NCBI RefSeq assembly: GCF_003634045.1
Contig: NZ_RBIM01000001.1
Span: forward strand, 558,001-622,000
DNA from: Maricaulis maris
GTDB lineage: Bacteria; Pseudomonadota; Alphaproteobacteria; Caulobacterales; Maricaulaceae
Direction: 5' to 3'
DNA length: 64,000 nucleotides
In this document: positions 9,654 through 62,452 of the stretch, piece after piece
How positions within the stretch are numbered: the stretch's first letter is position 1
Layout: each line of letters begins with the position of its first letter
The notes under the pieces: generated by a model
What the model was told of the DNA's origin: nothing
The model's database searches: none
Seen by the model: the letters and a program-made list of their open reading frames with translations, nothing else
Made by a program: the position numbers and the translations under genes

Positions 9654-9794
9654 GCCGCGATGTTTAGCGCCTTGGCGGGTGAGGGCAAGTGAACGGGGTG
9701 TCGCAGGGGGGGCGAGAAGCGTTCGGCCTGCCTGTGGATACCAAGTCTGACAGGACGTGTGCTCGTCGGTGAGGGCGCGTCTGCGCGTACCGGT

Positions 9795-9924
9795 CCATAC
9801 ATCGCTTGCCGGGATGTCGCCGCATCCGGTTTTCCAGGTCAAGGGCCGCATAGCGGCCGCTCCGCGGTTTTACCCTTGAGCTGGAAAACCGGATGCGGCC
9901 TGCTGGCTGTCAAGAGATTTATGG
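9795..9924. repeat. 130-bp palindromic element, copy 1
   Basis: Imperfect 14-bp terminal inverted repeats (9795-9808 and 9911-9924, pattern CCATNNATCNCTTG) enclose a 26-bp stem with one mismatch (9820-9845 with 9873-9898). An apical mini-hairpin GGCCGC/GCGGCC lies at 9844-9858. A second 130-bp copy at 45125-45254 has identical spacing but compensatory changes in the stems. It contains no ORF. It lies between the trmL stop and the hemF start and accounts for most of the 458-bp gap there. Confidence 0.85.
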
Positions 9925-10017
9925 TGCGGTCCGAGCGACGCACCTCCTCCGACCCGAACCGTCGCGCTGGAGGGCGTCCTGCTATTGGCGGGAGGTGAAT
10001 CGCAGCAGGCGGCTCCT

Positions 10018-10100
10018 CCCTCGCTTCGCTCGGCCCCCTTCGACCCGAGGCTGCGCCTCGGGCCACTTTCCCCGCTTTGCGGGGGCAGAAGGGGAGTGAG
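10018..10100. repeat. Modular triple-hairpin repeat, copy 1
   Basis: A C-module (around 10018-10033), a B-hairpin (CCCGAGG/CCTCGGG, 10044-10062) and an A-hairpin (CCCCGC/GCGGGG, 10070-10085) occur in this order on the + strand, joined by the conserved linkers TCGA-like and CCAC. Related copies lie at about 13539-13620, 45055-45116 (opposite orientation) and inside nadB (about 60076-60144). It ends just before the trmL stop codon. Confidence 0.7.
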
Positions 10101-44921: not shown

Positions 44922-45020
44922 CCGTCATCCCCCGGCTTGTCCGGGGGACCTCACCCATCCGCCAGCCGTCCGGGACGAGGTCCCCCGGATGAGCGCTGTG
45001 CGCTCCCCGTGGGATGACGG
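44922..45020. repeat. GTCATCCC-bounded palindromic element, copy 2
   Basis: Outer arms CCGTCATCCC (44922-44931) and GGGATGACGG (45011-45020) enclose a hairpin (CCCCCGGCTTGTCCGGGGG, about 44929-44947), then a GACCTC/GAGGTC pairing and a second GC hairpin. The general plan matches the element at 21131-21250. Confidence 0.7.
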
Positions 45021-45054
45021 AGTGGGAGGGGGAGGGGTTCGAGCGCAATAGGGT

Positions 45055-45116
45055 CCTTCCCCTTGATGGGGAAGGTGCCCCGAAGGGGCGGAAGGGGTGA
45101 GACGCGCCATCGGCGC
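45055..45116. repeat. Modular triple-hairpin repeat, copy 3 (opposite orientation)
   Basis: In order on the + strand: A-hairpin CCTTCCCC/GGGGAAGG (45055-45075), the linker GT, B-hairpin GCCCCGAAGGGGC (45077-45089), GGAAGGGG and C-hairpin GCGCCATCGGCGC (45104-45116). Relative to the copies at 10.0 and 13.5 kb the order is inverted. Confidence 0.65.
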
Positions 45117-45124
45117 ACAATGCC

Positions 45125-45254
45125 CCATTCATCCCTTGCCGAGACGTCGCCGTATCCGGTTTTCCAGGTCAAGGGCGCCACAGGCGCCGCTGCGCGGTTT
45201 CACCCTTGAGCTGGAAAACCGGATACGGCCTGCTGGCTGCCAAGTGATGTATGG
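45125..45254. repeat. 130-bp palindromic element, copy 2
   Basis: Same length and spacing as 9795-9924: TIRs at 45125-45138 and 45241-45254, a 26-bp stem at 45150-45175/45203-45228 and an apical mini-hairpin GGCGCC/GGCGCC. Where copy 1 has GCATCC/GGATGC, this copy has GTATCC/GGATAC. The next 72 bp to the lysE stop show nothing further. Confidence 0.85.
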
Positions 45255-45326
45255 ACCAGTCCGCGCGTCGCGCACTCACGTTCAGAATGTACCGGGAAAG
45301 CGTGTGTGAGCGCGGTCGACGCTAGC

Positions 45327-55393: not shown

Positions 55394-56056
55394 ATGTTGT
55401 TAGCGCGTCTGTCGAAGATTTCCGCCACGCTCTTCGTGTCGATGATCCTGGCCATGATCATGCTGGTCGGCCTGTGGTATTACGCCGCCGACTGGCTGAG
55501 CTGGGTGCAGGACGGCGCCGACCTGATCGAGGACATGATCGCCTCCATCCCGCTGGAAGACCGCTACAATAATTTCGTCCGCCTCTTCGCGAGCGACGAC
55601 AAGATCGTGCTTTTGATCTTCACCATCATCGCCCGCATCCTGCTGGCCCTCGTCGGCAGCAGTTTTACCGCCCTGACCGGTGGCCATGATCGCTACAGGG
55701 TCAAGGAACCGGGGCTGATCAGCCAGGTTTCGTCGATGATGGCGACGCTTTTCCTGTCCTTCATCGTGGCCATCATCATGCTGGCGGTGATCTCGATCGC
55801 GGCGGAAGGCGTCTTGCACAGCCTGCTGGACGCCGCCGACTGGGTCGAAGACCAGATTGCCCATCTGCCGATCGGCGGACGCTGGCGCGCCGGGGTCCGC
55901 TTTGCGGTCTCCGACGACAAGATCGTGCTTTTGTTCTTCACCATCATCGCCCGCCTGTTGATCGCGCTGGTCGCGACGGCCGTTACGCGCGCGGTTGGTG
56001 GCGGCGACAAGCCGGAGATCATTGCGCCGAAGGCGAAGGCCAACGCCAACAGCTGA
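55394..56056 (+). CDS. Membrane protein made of two tandem repeats
   Basis: 220 aa. Two units of about 95 residues have the same plan: a helix (ATLFVSMILAMIMLV / ATLFLSFIVAIIMLA), a D-W-x-E-D-like amphipathic segment ending in ASIP / AHLP, then SDDKIVLLIFTIIARILLALV / SDDKIVLLFFTIIARLLIALV. The second block is also nearly identical at DNA level (SDDKIVLL...FTIIAR). Four membrane helices in total. A recent internal duplication is likely. No known family is recognised. Confidence 0.8.
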   Translation: MLLARLSKISATLFVSMILAMIMLVGLWYYAADWLSWVQDGADLIEDMIASIPLEDRYNNFVRLFASDDKIVLLIFTIIARILLALVGSSFTALTGGHDRYRVKEPGLISQVSSMMATLFLSFIVAIIMLAVISIAAEGVLHSLLDAADWVEDQIAHLPIGGRWRAGVRFAVSDDKIVLLFFTIIARLLIALVATAVTRAVGGGDKPEIIAPKAKANANS

Positions 56057-58808: not shown

Positions 58809-59660
58809 TCAGCCCTCGTCCAAGCCAATATCAAAATTGGGCGCTGAATGGGTCAGCGCCCCGACCGAGATCACATCGACGCCGGTTTCGGCAATGCCGC
58901 GCACGGTCGTCAGATTGACCCCCCCAGAGGCTTCCAGCGTCACCTTGCCCTTGGCCGCCGCGACGGCGGCATTGAGGTCATCCAGCGAAAAATTGTCCAG
59001 CAGTACGCTCTCCGCGCCAGCGGAGATCGCAGCGTCGAGCTGGTCGAGCCGGTCCACTTCGACGGCAATGCGGGTCATGTGACCGGCGTTTGAGCGCGCG
59101 GCTTTGACAGCCTCGGCGACCCCGCCGCAGACAGCGACATGATTGTCCTTGATCAGGATGGCGTCATCGAGCCCGAAACGGTGCAGCGCCCCGCCGCCGG
59201 CCTGGACGGCCTGCAGCTCGAAGGCGCGGAAACCCGGTGTGGTCTTGCGGGTGTGGGCGATCCGGGCGCCGGTGCCCTTGACCGCATCGACATAAGCCCG
59301 CGTGAAGGTCGCAATCCCGCTCATCCGTCCCATGAAGTTCAAGAGGATCCGTTCGGCTGCCAACAGGCCGCGGGCGCGTCCGGTCACCGAGATCAGCACA
59401 TCGCCGGGTTTCACCTTATCGCCGTCTTCCATTTGCGGGCTGACCAGGGCTTCCGGATCACATTGCCAGATCGCTTCCAGCGCCGGCTGGAAACCACAGA
59501 CCACGCCGGCCTCGCGCGCATTGACGTAGAATTTTGCTTCGGCCTTGGCTGGAATGCAGGCCAGGGAGGTGACATCACCGCGACCGCCCTGGTCCTCGGC
59601 AATGGCGCGGGCGACCGCATCGCGGACGACTTGGCGGGGCAGGGGCAGGATGGCGGGCAT
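58809..59660 (-). CDS. nadC: Nicotinate-nucleotide pyrophosphorylase
   Basis: 283 aa from the ATG at 59660. Quinolinate PRTase signatures are DVTSLACIPAKAEA, the HTRKTTPGFRAFE motif, the GGGALHRFGLDDAILIKDNH segment and VEVDRLDQLD. It converts quinolinate and PRPP to nicotinate mononucleotide. Last gene of nadABC, 10 nt after nadB. Confidence 0.96.
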   Translation of the reverse strand: MPAILPLPRQVVRDAVARAIAEDQGGRGDVTSLACIPAKAEAKFYVNAREAGVVCGFQPALEAIWQCDPEALVSPQMEDGDKVKPGDVLISVTGRARGLLAAERILLNFMGRMSGIATFTRAYVDAVKGTGARIAHTRKTTPGFRAFELQAVQAGGGALHRFGLDDAILIKDNHVAVCGGVAEAVKAARSNAGHMTRIAVEVDRLDQLDAAISAGAESVLLDNFSLDDLNAAVAAAKGKVTLEASGGVNLTTVRGIAETGVDVISVGALTHSAPNFDIGLDEG

Positions 59661-59670
59661 GGCGGTCGTC

Positions 59671-61308
59671 CTATTCAGCCGGACCGTTGAGGGCCGCGGG
59701 CGCCAGTTCCGGCGCGGCAAGATCGTCGAGGCGCAGCGCGCTATGGCGCGCCTCCTTGAGTGTTTGTGGGCAATCAGTGCGGAAATGACCACCCCGGCTT
59801 TCACGCCGGTTCAGCGCGCCCGTCACGATGAAGCGCGCTGCGATCAGCGCATCCGCCTCGCCATGCTCGGATCGCATCGCATCGATCAGCGCCGCCAGTT
59901 CACTCAGCCCGGCCTCGCTACGCTCGACCCCGCAATGGCGCGACATGGCCTGACGCAGTCGCAGGAGGGCGAGGGGAGGGAGGTTTCCTCCCCAGCTTGC
60001 TGGGGAGGGGGATCGCGAAGCGGTGGAGGGGTCGGTGTGCGCAAGCACGCCGATGTCGATCCCAAGTGGCTCACGGCGGCCTGCGGCCGCGGCTCCATCG
60101 ACCCGCGGCTTTGCCGCGGCCCACTTCCCCACGGTGTGGGGAAGAAACGCCGCTACACGCGCAAACCGCGCCGCTGACACCAGCCCCTCGGCCAGCGAAT
60201 TCGAGGCCAGGCGATTGGCGCCGTGCAGGCCGGTGGCGGCGCATTCGCCGATCGCAAACAGGCCGGGGACCGAGGTTCGTCCGTCGATATCGGTGGCAAC
60301 ACCGCCCATATGGTAATGCGCCGTCGGGGCAACCGGGATCGGCTCGATACGCGGATCGATGCCGGCGCGCTGGCAGGCTGCGAAGACCGCCGGGAATCGC
60401 TCCGGGAACGCCTCGCCGACAGCCTCACGGCAATCGAGGAAAGCGCCTTTTCCCGATGCATTCTGGCGGTGCACGGCGCGGGCGACGACATCGCGCGGAG
60501 CCAGCTCCGCATCGTCGTGGATCGCCTTCATGAAGCGGTGACCGGTCTGGTCGACCAGGATCGCCCCCTCACCGCGCAGGGCTTCGGTGCACAGGGGCGC
60601 CGGATCGAGGCCGGCATTGAGCGCGGTCGGGTGGAATTGCACGAATTCCGGGTCACGGATTTCCGCACCCAGACGGGCTGCCATGGCCATGGCCTGGCCC
60701 TGGGCGATCGCCGGAGTGGTGGTCAGCGCGAACAGGCCACCTGCGCCGCCCATGGCAAGCAGGGTTGTGTCGGCGTCAAGGGCCTCGATCTCGCCGTTCG
60801 GGCCTTGCGCAATGGCACCCCTGCAGGCGTTCGCGTCACCCAGCAGGGAGACCGCTCTCCAGCCATCGCGGATCTCGATATGAGCGGCCGCGCGAACCGC
60901 CTCGATCAGGGTTGCCATGATCGCCGCGCCGGCCCCATCGCCCTTCACCCTTGCGACCCGCGGCCGCGAATGCGCCGCTTCGCGGGAGAGGGACCAGCCC
61001 TCGCCCTCGCGCTCAAACGGCGCACCGAGTGCCGCCAGTGCCGCAACTTCCGCCGCCGCGCCCTCGGCAAGGGCAAAGGCCGCGTCTTGATCAACCAGAC
61101 CGGCACCCGCCGCGACCGTGTCGCGGGCATGCAGCGCCGCACTGTCATTCGCGGCCAGTGCCGCCGACACTCCGCCCTGCGCCCAGCCGGACGCGGCTCC
61201 GTCACCCAGCGGTGCGCCGGTAAGAAGGATCACCGGCCGCGGCGCGAGCTTCAACGCCGCCCAGAGTCCGGCGATGCCAGCGCCGCAAATAAGGGTGGGG
61301 CGGGTCAT
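59671..61308 (-). CDS. nadB: L-aspartate oxidase with an in-frame repeat insertion
   Basis: 545 aa FAD enzyme making iminoaspartate. The nucleotide-binding site is [14 protein letters not shown]. Other signatures are [12 protein letters not shown] and [41 protein letters not shown]. Residues 388-447 (FLPHTVGKW ... GGNLPPL) do not look like NadB but like translated palindromic repeat (nt 59968-60147). They sit between the FAD domain and the helical C-terminal domain, where a flexible linker is tolerated. The frame is intact. Confidence 0.93.
   Translation of the reverse strand: [545 protein letters not shown]
59968..60147. repeat. Palindromic repeat cluster inserted in nadB
   Basis: About 180 bp (60 codons) within nadB. 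An A-hairpin CTTCCCC/GGGGAAG (60124-60144), a B-hairpin CCGCGGC/GCCGCGG (60103-60119) and a C-hairpin GCGGCC/GGCCGC (60076-60090) match the triple-hairpin family. A further hairpin, CCTCCCCAGC/GCTGGGGAGG, lies at 59987-60008. This is copy 4 of the family, extended at one side. Confidence 0.8.
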
Positions 61309-61312
61309 GGGA

Positions 61313-62422
61313 TCAAATCACAACCAGATCCACACGCTTCTCCGGCTTGGTCGGATCAAAGCTGGCGGGCTTGGCCGGCTTGGGCAGGTCGAGCATGGCC
61401 TGGACCGAACGGCGGGCGCCTTCGATGACGGCGTCGGGGACGGTCACTTCATGCTGTCCCAGACGCAGGCAGTCATAGATGTTTTCCAGCGTGATCCGCT
61501 TCATGTGCGGGCACAGATTGCAGGGGCGGATGAACTCGACCTCCGGCACGTCGGCGGCGACATTGTCGCTCATTGAGCATTCGGTGAGGAGGACGGCCTT
61601 CTTGGCGCCTGAATCCTTGGCCCAGTCGGCCATGGCGGCGGTCGAGCCGGCGAAATCGGCGGCTTGGACCACCTCCAGCGGGCTTTCCGGATGGGTGATG
61701 ATGACCACGCCGGGATGGGCATCGCGCAGGTCCTGGATGTCCTGCGCCGTGAATTGCTCGTGGACTTCACAAGCCCCCGCCCAGGTCAGGATTTTGACAT
61801 CGGTCTGGGCGGCGACATTCTTGGCGAGATACTGGTCGGGCAGGAGGATGACGGTATCGCTGCCAAGGCTCTCGACCACTTGCACCGCGTTGGAGCTGGT
61901 GCAGCAGATATCGCACTCGGCTTTGACGTCCGCCGAGGTGTTCACATAGGTTACGACCGGGATGCCGGGATAGGCGGCCTTGATGCGGCGCACATCCTCG
62001 CCCGTGATCGATGAGGCCAGCGAACAGCCGGCGCGGGTGTCGGGGATGAGGACGGTCTTTTCCGGGGCGAGCACCTTGGCGGTCTCGGCCATGAAGTGGA
62101 CGCCAGCCTGGACGATGATATCGGCTTCGCTTTCCGCCGCCATGCGGGCGAGGGCGAGGCTGTCGCCCATCAGGTCGCCGACGCAGTGGAAAATGTCCGC
62201 CGTCATGTAATTGTGCGCGAGGATGACCGCGTTCTTTTCTTTTTTCAGCTGGTTGATGGCGTGGATGAGGGGGGCCTTGGCAGGCCATTCCATCGGTGTC
62301 ACGACATGGCTGACCTTGGCGTAAAGATGGTCCGTCGCGGCTTTGACCTCGTCCGTATAGGCGAGTTCGGGCCGATCCTGATCAAAGCCCGCAAGCGTGC
62401 CGTCCATGTTCATCCGGTCCAT
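61313..62422 (-). CDS. nadA: Quinolinate synthase A
   Basis: 369 aa from the ATG at 62422, preferred over 62452 because GAGGGAAAA precedes it directly and site 1 of the operator array lies between the two. Three candidate [4Fe-4S] Cys occur in TRAGCSLAS, CDICCTSSN and RPCNLCPHM. AVILAHNYMTADI, GVHFMAETAKVL and VIITHPESPLEVVQAA are NadA signatures. It condenses iminoaspartate with DHAP. First gene of nadABC, 4 nt before nadB. Confidence 0.95.
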   Translation of the reverse strand: MDRMNMDGTLAGFDQDRPELAYTDEVKAATDHLYAKVSHVVTPMEWPAKAPLIHAINQLKKEKNAVILAHNYMTADIFHCVGDLMGDSLALARMAAESEADIIVQAGVHFMAETAKVLAPEKTVLIPDTRAGCSLASSITGEDVRRIKAAYPGIPVVTYVNTSADVKAECDICCTSSNAVQVVESLGSDTVILLPDQYLAKNVAAQTDVKILTWAGACEVHEQFTAQDIQDLRDAHPGVVIITHPESPLEVVQAADFAGSTAAMADWAKDSGAKKAVLLTECSMSDNVAADVPEVEFIRPCNLCPHMKRITLENIYDCLRLGQHEVTVPDAVIEGARRSVQAMLDLPKPAKPASFDPTKPEKRVDLVVI

Positions 62423-62435
62423 TTTTCCCTCACTT

Positions 62436-62452
62436 TTGCTCAATTCGAGCAT
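62436..62452. promoter_or_regulatory. nad operator candidate, site 1
   Basis: TTGCTC-AATTC-GAGCAT: half-sites WTGCTC/GAGCWT with a 5-nt spacer. It begins 14 nt upstream of the nadA ATG at 62422 and overlaps its leader, a repressing position. Confidence 0.6.

Follow-up and report, generated by a model that had tools for sequence, protein, structure and literature searches.

Palindromic elements of 105-146 bp that lie in frame in conserved genes are known from Rickettsia as RPEs (Ogata et al. 2000, via Delihas 2007, PMC2229807). According to the same text, RPEs occur in 19 reading frames, which belong to different genes; it also describes an RPE-bearing guanylate kinase, the product of gmk, that is translated and active with a changed substrate affinity (PMC2229807). 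The REPs tagged with CGTC prevail in Alphaproteobacteria and have no dedicated transposase, and Rickettsia RPE-4 and RPE-6 have been assigned to the CGTC-REP superfamily (Di Nocera et al. 2013, PMC3733652, accessible text). That text also lists REPs that lie within coding regions in several species, and it notes that the recB genes of X. campestris and X. oryzae carry different REPs at about one site (PMC3733652); elsewhere REPs are described as seldom overlapping coding regions (PMC12306157, accessible part). The Caulobacter intergenic repeats (CIR) are entered with a '-' for terminal inverted repeats (footnoted) and for open reading frame in the table of PMC2229807; judged from that table description alone, they are like the Maricaulis repeats discussed here in being short, dispersed, and alphaproteobacterial. 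In-frame palindromes are already known, as Rickettsia RPEs and intragenic REPs, and so is a recB site in two Xanthomonas; what is unusual at the locus we describe, in nadB of Maricaulis, is the repeated refilling of one site with unrelated families. Among open-licence papers searched by title and abstract opening, we found no report of nadB palindromes or of a Maricaulis repeat family, a scope that makes this weak evidence of absence. A term search of PMC3733652 returned no mention of Maricaulis, and neither of the families that we call A1 and A2 was recognised in the accessible portion of its text.

The window, by which we mean the whole 64,000-nt stretch of Maricaulis maris DNA analyzed, carries nadB on the minus strand at 59671-61308. 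The ORF, profile matches, and predicted structure agree on a 545-aa L-aspartate oxidase. Upstream, and in an operon-like run with it, lies nadA (quinolinate synthase, 61313-62452, minus strand), and downstream lies nadC (quinolinate phosphoribosyltransferase, 58809-59660, minus strand). NadB scores 620 bits against NCBIfam NF005701 (L-aspartate oxidase; cut-off 528), which places it in that family, and the closest PDB structure to its model is E. coli L-aspartate oxidase 1knp (E 2.2e-41). The AlphaFold model, for which 23 aligned NadB sequences and relatives served as input, has a mean pLDDT of 85. The pLDDT is below 50 for residues 392-433 and averages 88 over 381-390 and 92 over 441-450, the blocks of ten residues to either side; the model predicts a disordered stretch at 392-433 between two confident domains. 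Pfam FAD_binding_2 and Succ_DH_flav_C match on either side of the insert, in agreement with the placement of the insert in an inter-domain linker by the first-pass annotation.

The insert itself is a type A1 palindromic element at 59984-60147, recognized by sequence, folding, and a covariance model (minus strand; model strand plus, antisense to nadB). It is a string of hairpins, 164 nt in length, that covers codons 388-442 of an uninterrupted 545-aa ORF, so that the frame of nadB is kept, as had been proposed. An earlier span of 59968-60147 had its end exactly right and its start 16 nt too far out. The two ends of the element match, TTTCCTCCCC ... GGGGAAGAAA (TTTCTTCCCC read on the other strand), and each holds a terminal hairpin with a perfect stem, CCTCCCCAGC..GCTGGGGAGG at 59987-60008 and CTTCCCCAC...GTGGGGAAG at 60124-60144. 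The folding of 59968-60152 beats 200 of 200 dinucleotide shuffles, with a z of -3.98 as RNA and -5.11 as DNA. A known structured RNA at the insert was considered and rejected; the sole candidate, a ZMP-ZTP match, lies outside the insert and below threshold (23 bits vs 39).

With the whole element as query, its own genome returns the element itself and about 11 clear full or partial copies among the 45 matches listed, which run down to chance level. The hairpin modules that the first-pass annotation had seen elsewhere in the window are indeed there, each as a half copy: one of A1 at 10021-10092 (G000:C1:568021-568092, plus strand; covariance model E 2.1e-13) and one of A2 at 45054-45107 (G000:C1:603054-603107, minus strand), identical over 54 nt (100%) to the nadB insert of G017. 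The A1 covariance model, built for one element end from 12 hand-copied examples, matches all 19 Maricaulis genomes 2 to 69 times each, where one element may match at both ends. Weaker A1 matches extend beyond the genus into part of the bacterial family (in 30 of the 59 genomes examined, six of them from the genus). A2 is a sister family with TTGAT loops and an interior different from that of A1; its search gave 13 to 50 matches in each of eight genomes searched (8/8), some of them cross-matches to A1. In the window's own genome, at G000:C3:420439-421259 (L262, L269, L277), we also observed three A2-like copies with starts 342 and 344 nt apart, an apparent tandem array.

Type B is a third family. 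Its unit reads CGTC-ATCCCCCGG-CTTGT-CCGGGGGAC, with the first A-C position unpaired and 8 bp remaining, and it is found at two or fewer mismatches in 14 of 19 genus genomes, with no match to a reversed control pattern. The window holds one such CGTC-REP dimer at 44922-45020, the first unit of which is identical to that in nadB of G016 and G010. In nadB of G016, G010, and G006, type B is like the CGTC REPs (CGTC tag, stem of 8-9 bp, loop of 4-5 nt) in its outer CGTC tags, short stem, and 5-nt loop, and likewise in being a dispersed head-to-head dimer, with CGTC outermost in nadB and in the other copies read; its stem is followed by CTC, where the short tail of CGTC REPs is mostly CCA. The A1 element of the window bears neither a CGTC nor a GTAG end tag, its ends being TTTCCTCCCC...GGGGAAGAAA, and thus falls outside the CGTC-REP superfamily as defined by a CGTC tag at one palindrome end. 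Two further repeats of the window are recorded here as side observations. Type C, at 9780-9941 and 45110-45271, is 162 nt long with 83% identity between copies and 27-nt near-perfect arms (GCCGYATCCGGTTTTCCAGGTCAAGGG); in relatives of it near A1 elements (L003, L007, L011) the arm sequences differ yet remain complementary by eye, which suggests that the arms covary. A 62-nt direct repeat at 55594-55655 and 55912-55973 is 87% identical, its copies being 318 nt apart.

The likeness to RPEs drawn in the first-pass annotation stands in that both are in-frame palindromes in a conserved protein gene (one gene here), and the host does differ, being the genus Maricaulis rather than Rickettsia. The accompanying description as a different repeat holds for the window copy, which is untagged (A2 likewise has no CGTC tag), but three sister species carry in the same linker a CGTC-tagged dimer, of the superfamily that includes RPE-4 and RPE-6. 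RPEs, moreover, occupy many genes, whereas in the Maricaulis sample one gene takes several families.

A NadB match was obtained in 61 of 61 genomes searched, the sole match in G024 resembling the SdhA paralogue. The presence/absence comparison of nadB that had been proposed for the genus reveals a complete palindromic element in the linker of 12 of 19 species, a partial element in two (G013 and G002), and none in five (G001 (M. parjimensis), G014, G004, G007, and G009), with classes set by eye from hairpin motifs and in agreement with BLAST. A1 occupies the linker in four genomes (the window's own, G005, G003 (M. salignorans), and G011); A2, in the orientation opposite to A1, in five (G015, G017, G012 (M. 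alexandrii), G008, and G018); and the type B dimer in three (G016, G010, and G006, in the last of which the N-terminal part lies on another contig). The species names are those of loci that share the NadB segment of the genome in question. Against the repeat library, four of the five empty linkers give no match, and that of G014 matches only via a 25-nt flank common with G008. In all 11 aligned loci from other genera the linker is short, 27-28 aa in the three with both anchors, compared with 65 aa in the window NadB; the same 60 residues in NadB of distant Alphaproteobacteria, which the first-pass annotation had named as evidence against an insertion, are not seen there, and conservation of the insert in distant NadB is rejected. 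Among the matches listed, the N- and C-terminal parts of NadB fall on a single contig in 23 of 42 non-genus genomes, separated by -24 to 87 nt (by eye). The recB case concerns two species, whereas the nadB case spans 12 of 19 with three families, both orientations, and displacement of the native linker by type A.

We counted turnover as the minimum number of changes on a tree of NadB minus its linker, which may differ from the species tree. On this tree, no fewer than 4 changes are required for the three families in the 12 filled linkers, 5 for complete-element presence (4 if partial elements are counted), and 10 for five linker states including 'partial' and 'none'. The clade of six species to which the window strain belongs (A1, B, B, A2, A2, B) takes 3 changes by itself. 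Grouping each family as a single clade is rejected, with AU p values of 0.006 for B, 2e-13 for A1, and 2e-66 for A2. Clustering of the linker states on the tree is weak; shuffled labels gave equally few changes in 65 of 500 trials for the five states and in 33 of 500 for the families among the 12. What had been read as one insertion is repeat-derived, as proposed, but the relatives reveal a recurrent hotspot. Simple inversion in place of one type-A element was set aside, because A1 and A2 are unlike in their interiors and A2 has matches in a dispersed family of its own.

Measured from the codon of a conserved Ala-Ala-Arg to the first hairpin motif, type A starts 18 nt past that codon in seven of the nine complete linkers and in the partial G013, 21 nt past it in the window genome (or 18 with the leading TTT included, as the script counted), and 15 nt past it in G012. 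The starts of all nine complete type-A inserts therefore lie no more than 3 nt from a common position, and seven of them coincide with it. Type B starts at 36, 39, and 36 nt, and all 12 complete elements begin at a codon boundary. The DNA in the linker that does not belong to an element amounts to 31-45 nt with type A, 74-89 nt with type B, and 84-114 nt in empty linkers. Native linker has thus been lost with type A; these inserts displaced about half of it or more, and B inserts leave about the native length. The closest filled/empty pair, G008 (A2) and G014 (none), is 95% identical in the N flank of nadB and 93.5% in the C flank. Their linkers have identical immediate flanks, between which about 45 nt of G014 stand in place of the A2 element of G008, a swap of the interior that is not what clean transposition or simple excision would leave. 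In seven of nine type-A cases (the exceptions being G005 and G018) the best BLAST partner is a non-nadB copy rather than another nadB element, in a comparison where the non-nadB library is larger than the nadB set.

In all 19 genus nadB genes both linker anchors lie within one uninterrupted ORF. The other five frames of the linker are each closed in 6 to 13 of the 19, most of all in B, and we saw no consistent preference of the elements for the least hydrophobic frame. The nadB flanks, with dN/dS of 0.04-0.33, are under purifying selection. In four pairs with homologous linkers, the linker dN/dS is 0.23 (G016/G006, ten changes), 0.40 (G015/G017), 0.82 (G010/G016), and 0.54 (G008/G018, where the alignment is uncertain). 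Going by these ratios, homologous linkers are less strongly constrained than the flanks; since all four values are below 1, some constraint on the peptide is possible. The G016 (L032) and G006 (L077) linkers are 95% identical with a dS of 0.12, between flanks with dS of 0.61 (83 codons) and 0.39, which in this one pair suggests either a local recombination patch or constraint at the DNA level.

We asked of each repeat locus whether both flanks code in one open frame, using a codon-usage heuristic trained on 40 window ORFs picked by base composition. The answer was positive for 14 of 14 nadB inserts (12 complete, 2 partial) and for none of the loci elsewhere: 0 of 60 for A1 (from six genomes), 0 of 27 for A2, and 0 of 28 for B, 0 of 115 in total. 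In a first version of the test, on A1 only, the best frame agreed between the two flanks in 8 of 60, but stops intervened. For A1 the sample is the best 60 of about 150 rows, and nadB loci were taken out of the A2 set (L279 and L283; L261, also nadB, was never in it) and of the B set (L143 and L157). The loci are partly dependent: one array accounts for three of the A2 loci, two B pairs each represent the ends of a single dimer, and some loci are close to the end of a contig. Because the sample is a best-scoring one with partly dependent loci, our claim is limited to nadB standing out, and other genes may also be hit. As intergenic controls, three A1 sites of the same genome were traced in relatives. 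At the L209 site, the A1 element is kept in G016 at 96%, with no library match in G015, G017, G010, or G012. At the L208 site, G016, G010, and G015 give no library match. At the L204 site, G016, G017, and G006 match other repeats, chiefly type C, over short lengths, and G010 has no match; in G015 type A is kept according to the search listing. By eye, the orthologue of the L208 site in G016 (L324) holds a TGTC-tagged-looking palindrome pair instead of A1, and since this site differs, palindrome slots change between genes too. A palindrome that changes in place is therefore no peculiarity of nadB; the intragenic position is the distinctive part. As the intergenic A1 sites likewise vary, one being stable and two holding another repeat or no repeat in the majority of relatives resolved, nadB behaves as an intergenic slot.

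The observed core is that unrelated families, in both orientations, occupy one linker, in frame in every species examined, while the flanking enzyme is strongly conserved. We consider it probable, with moderate confidence, that Maricaulis has a hotspot in the NadB linker, which joins the FAD/capping part to the C-terminal helical domain, and that dispersed palindromes are repeatedly gained, swapped, and lost there. A first palindrome would have landed in the linker early in the genus, and later variants may have arisen mainly through recombination or repair between the resident palindrome and other dispersed copies, with selection keeping solely those outcomes that were stop-free and of 3n length. 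SbcCD cleaves long palindromes, and the resulting break is mended by recombination. The shared left edge would also follow from fresh insertion by a site-specific inserter, as an alternative to conversion turnover of this kind; how type B could be a homologous replacement of type A is not obvious. The encoded peptide would be carried in a disordered tether, and the insert is best read as a tolerated passenger rather than a new enzyme function. A bolder and decidedly tentative version is that nadB holds a genus-wide coding slot, with a type-A start within one codon, that is repeatedly emptied and refilled by unrelated palindromes either way round, either since the slot itself recruits palindromes (by site-specific insertion or break repair) or since a strong hairpin is useful there whatever its sequence.

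The usefulness of a hairpin is the substance of the best-surviving alternative, an unlikely one in our estimation, in which hairpins in the middle of nadA-nadB-nadC would have been exapted and kept for mRNA tuning, through translation pausing, mRNA stability, or nadC output. Any strong palindrome would then suffice, hence the repeated refilling of one linker by three unrelated families. The 11 complete linkers also fold strongly, at -91 to -132 kcal/mol against -35 to -48 for the five empty, shorter ones (values without a shuffle control), and the low dS of the G016/G006 linker between its faster flanks points the same way, although a local recombination patch explains it equally. Yet 5 of 19 species do without any element, and within 59600-60500 a consensus scan found neither a promoter nor a terminator-like site and Rfam gave no match at gathering score.

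The shared left edge of all nine complete type-A inserts, and the frequent closeness of elements to non-nadB copies rather than to the nadB inserts of other species, would also be expected if a transposase or RAYT recognized the nadB site and inserted afresh in each lineage. We regard this as quite improbable. A Y1 transposase (PF01797) is present in 5 of 19 Maricaulis genomes, and no Y1/RAYT transposase was found in the other 14, the window's own included. Type A does occur near two of nine Y1 loci, with three copies by one in G012 and one copy in G003, but it sits at least 0.8 kb from the transposase gene and does not border it; at the seven of nine Y1 hits whose gene borders were inspected, these bear, by eye, other inverted or repeated motifs. 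The arrangement of a RAYT-mobilised REP or REPtron, a Y1 transposase flanked by the repeat, is not seen for type A at these loci. The loss of native linker that accompanies type A also speaks against such an inserter. The Maricaulis Y1 genes L300-L306 have by eye their own repeated border motifs (e.g., GGGACATGTACC...GGTACATGTCCC) and perhaps resemble the TIR-associated transposases of PMC3733652.

If homologous recombination had passed entire nadB linker alleles from one species to another, true insertions being few, this could account for a G016/G006 linker similarity that far exceeds that of the flanks. We find it very improbable: in G008/G014 the identity of the flanks reaches to the very edge of the swapped interior, and the other same-family pairs compared, G015/G017, G010/G016, and G008/G018, show no such excess of linker similarity. 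An assembly error or a pseudogene, for which nothing was found in favor, deserves next to no credence, given the element in 12 separate genomes, two of which are single contigs (G010 and G016), and nadB ORFs that are uninterrupted and retain the C-terminal ESRGGHFR.

Returning to the hotspot of gain, swapping, and loss, this coding spot in nadB behaves like intergenic DNA, because in most of the species compared the linker is built from whichever palindrome ended up there while the enzyme stays intact. The nadB site bears on how REP-like and other palindromic repeats move without an obvious transposase. At this one orthologous coding site the repeat family has changed at least four times in one genus; with its common left edge, its empty counterparts in sister species, and the requirement for frame, the site naturally documents how elements are inserted, swapped, and lost, and nadB provides an example of an enzyme tether rewritten several times from unrelated DNA.
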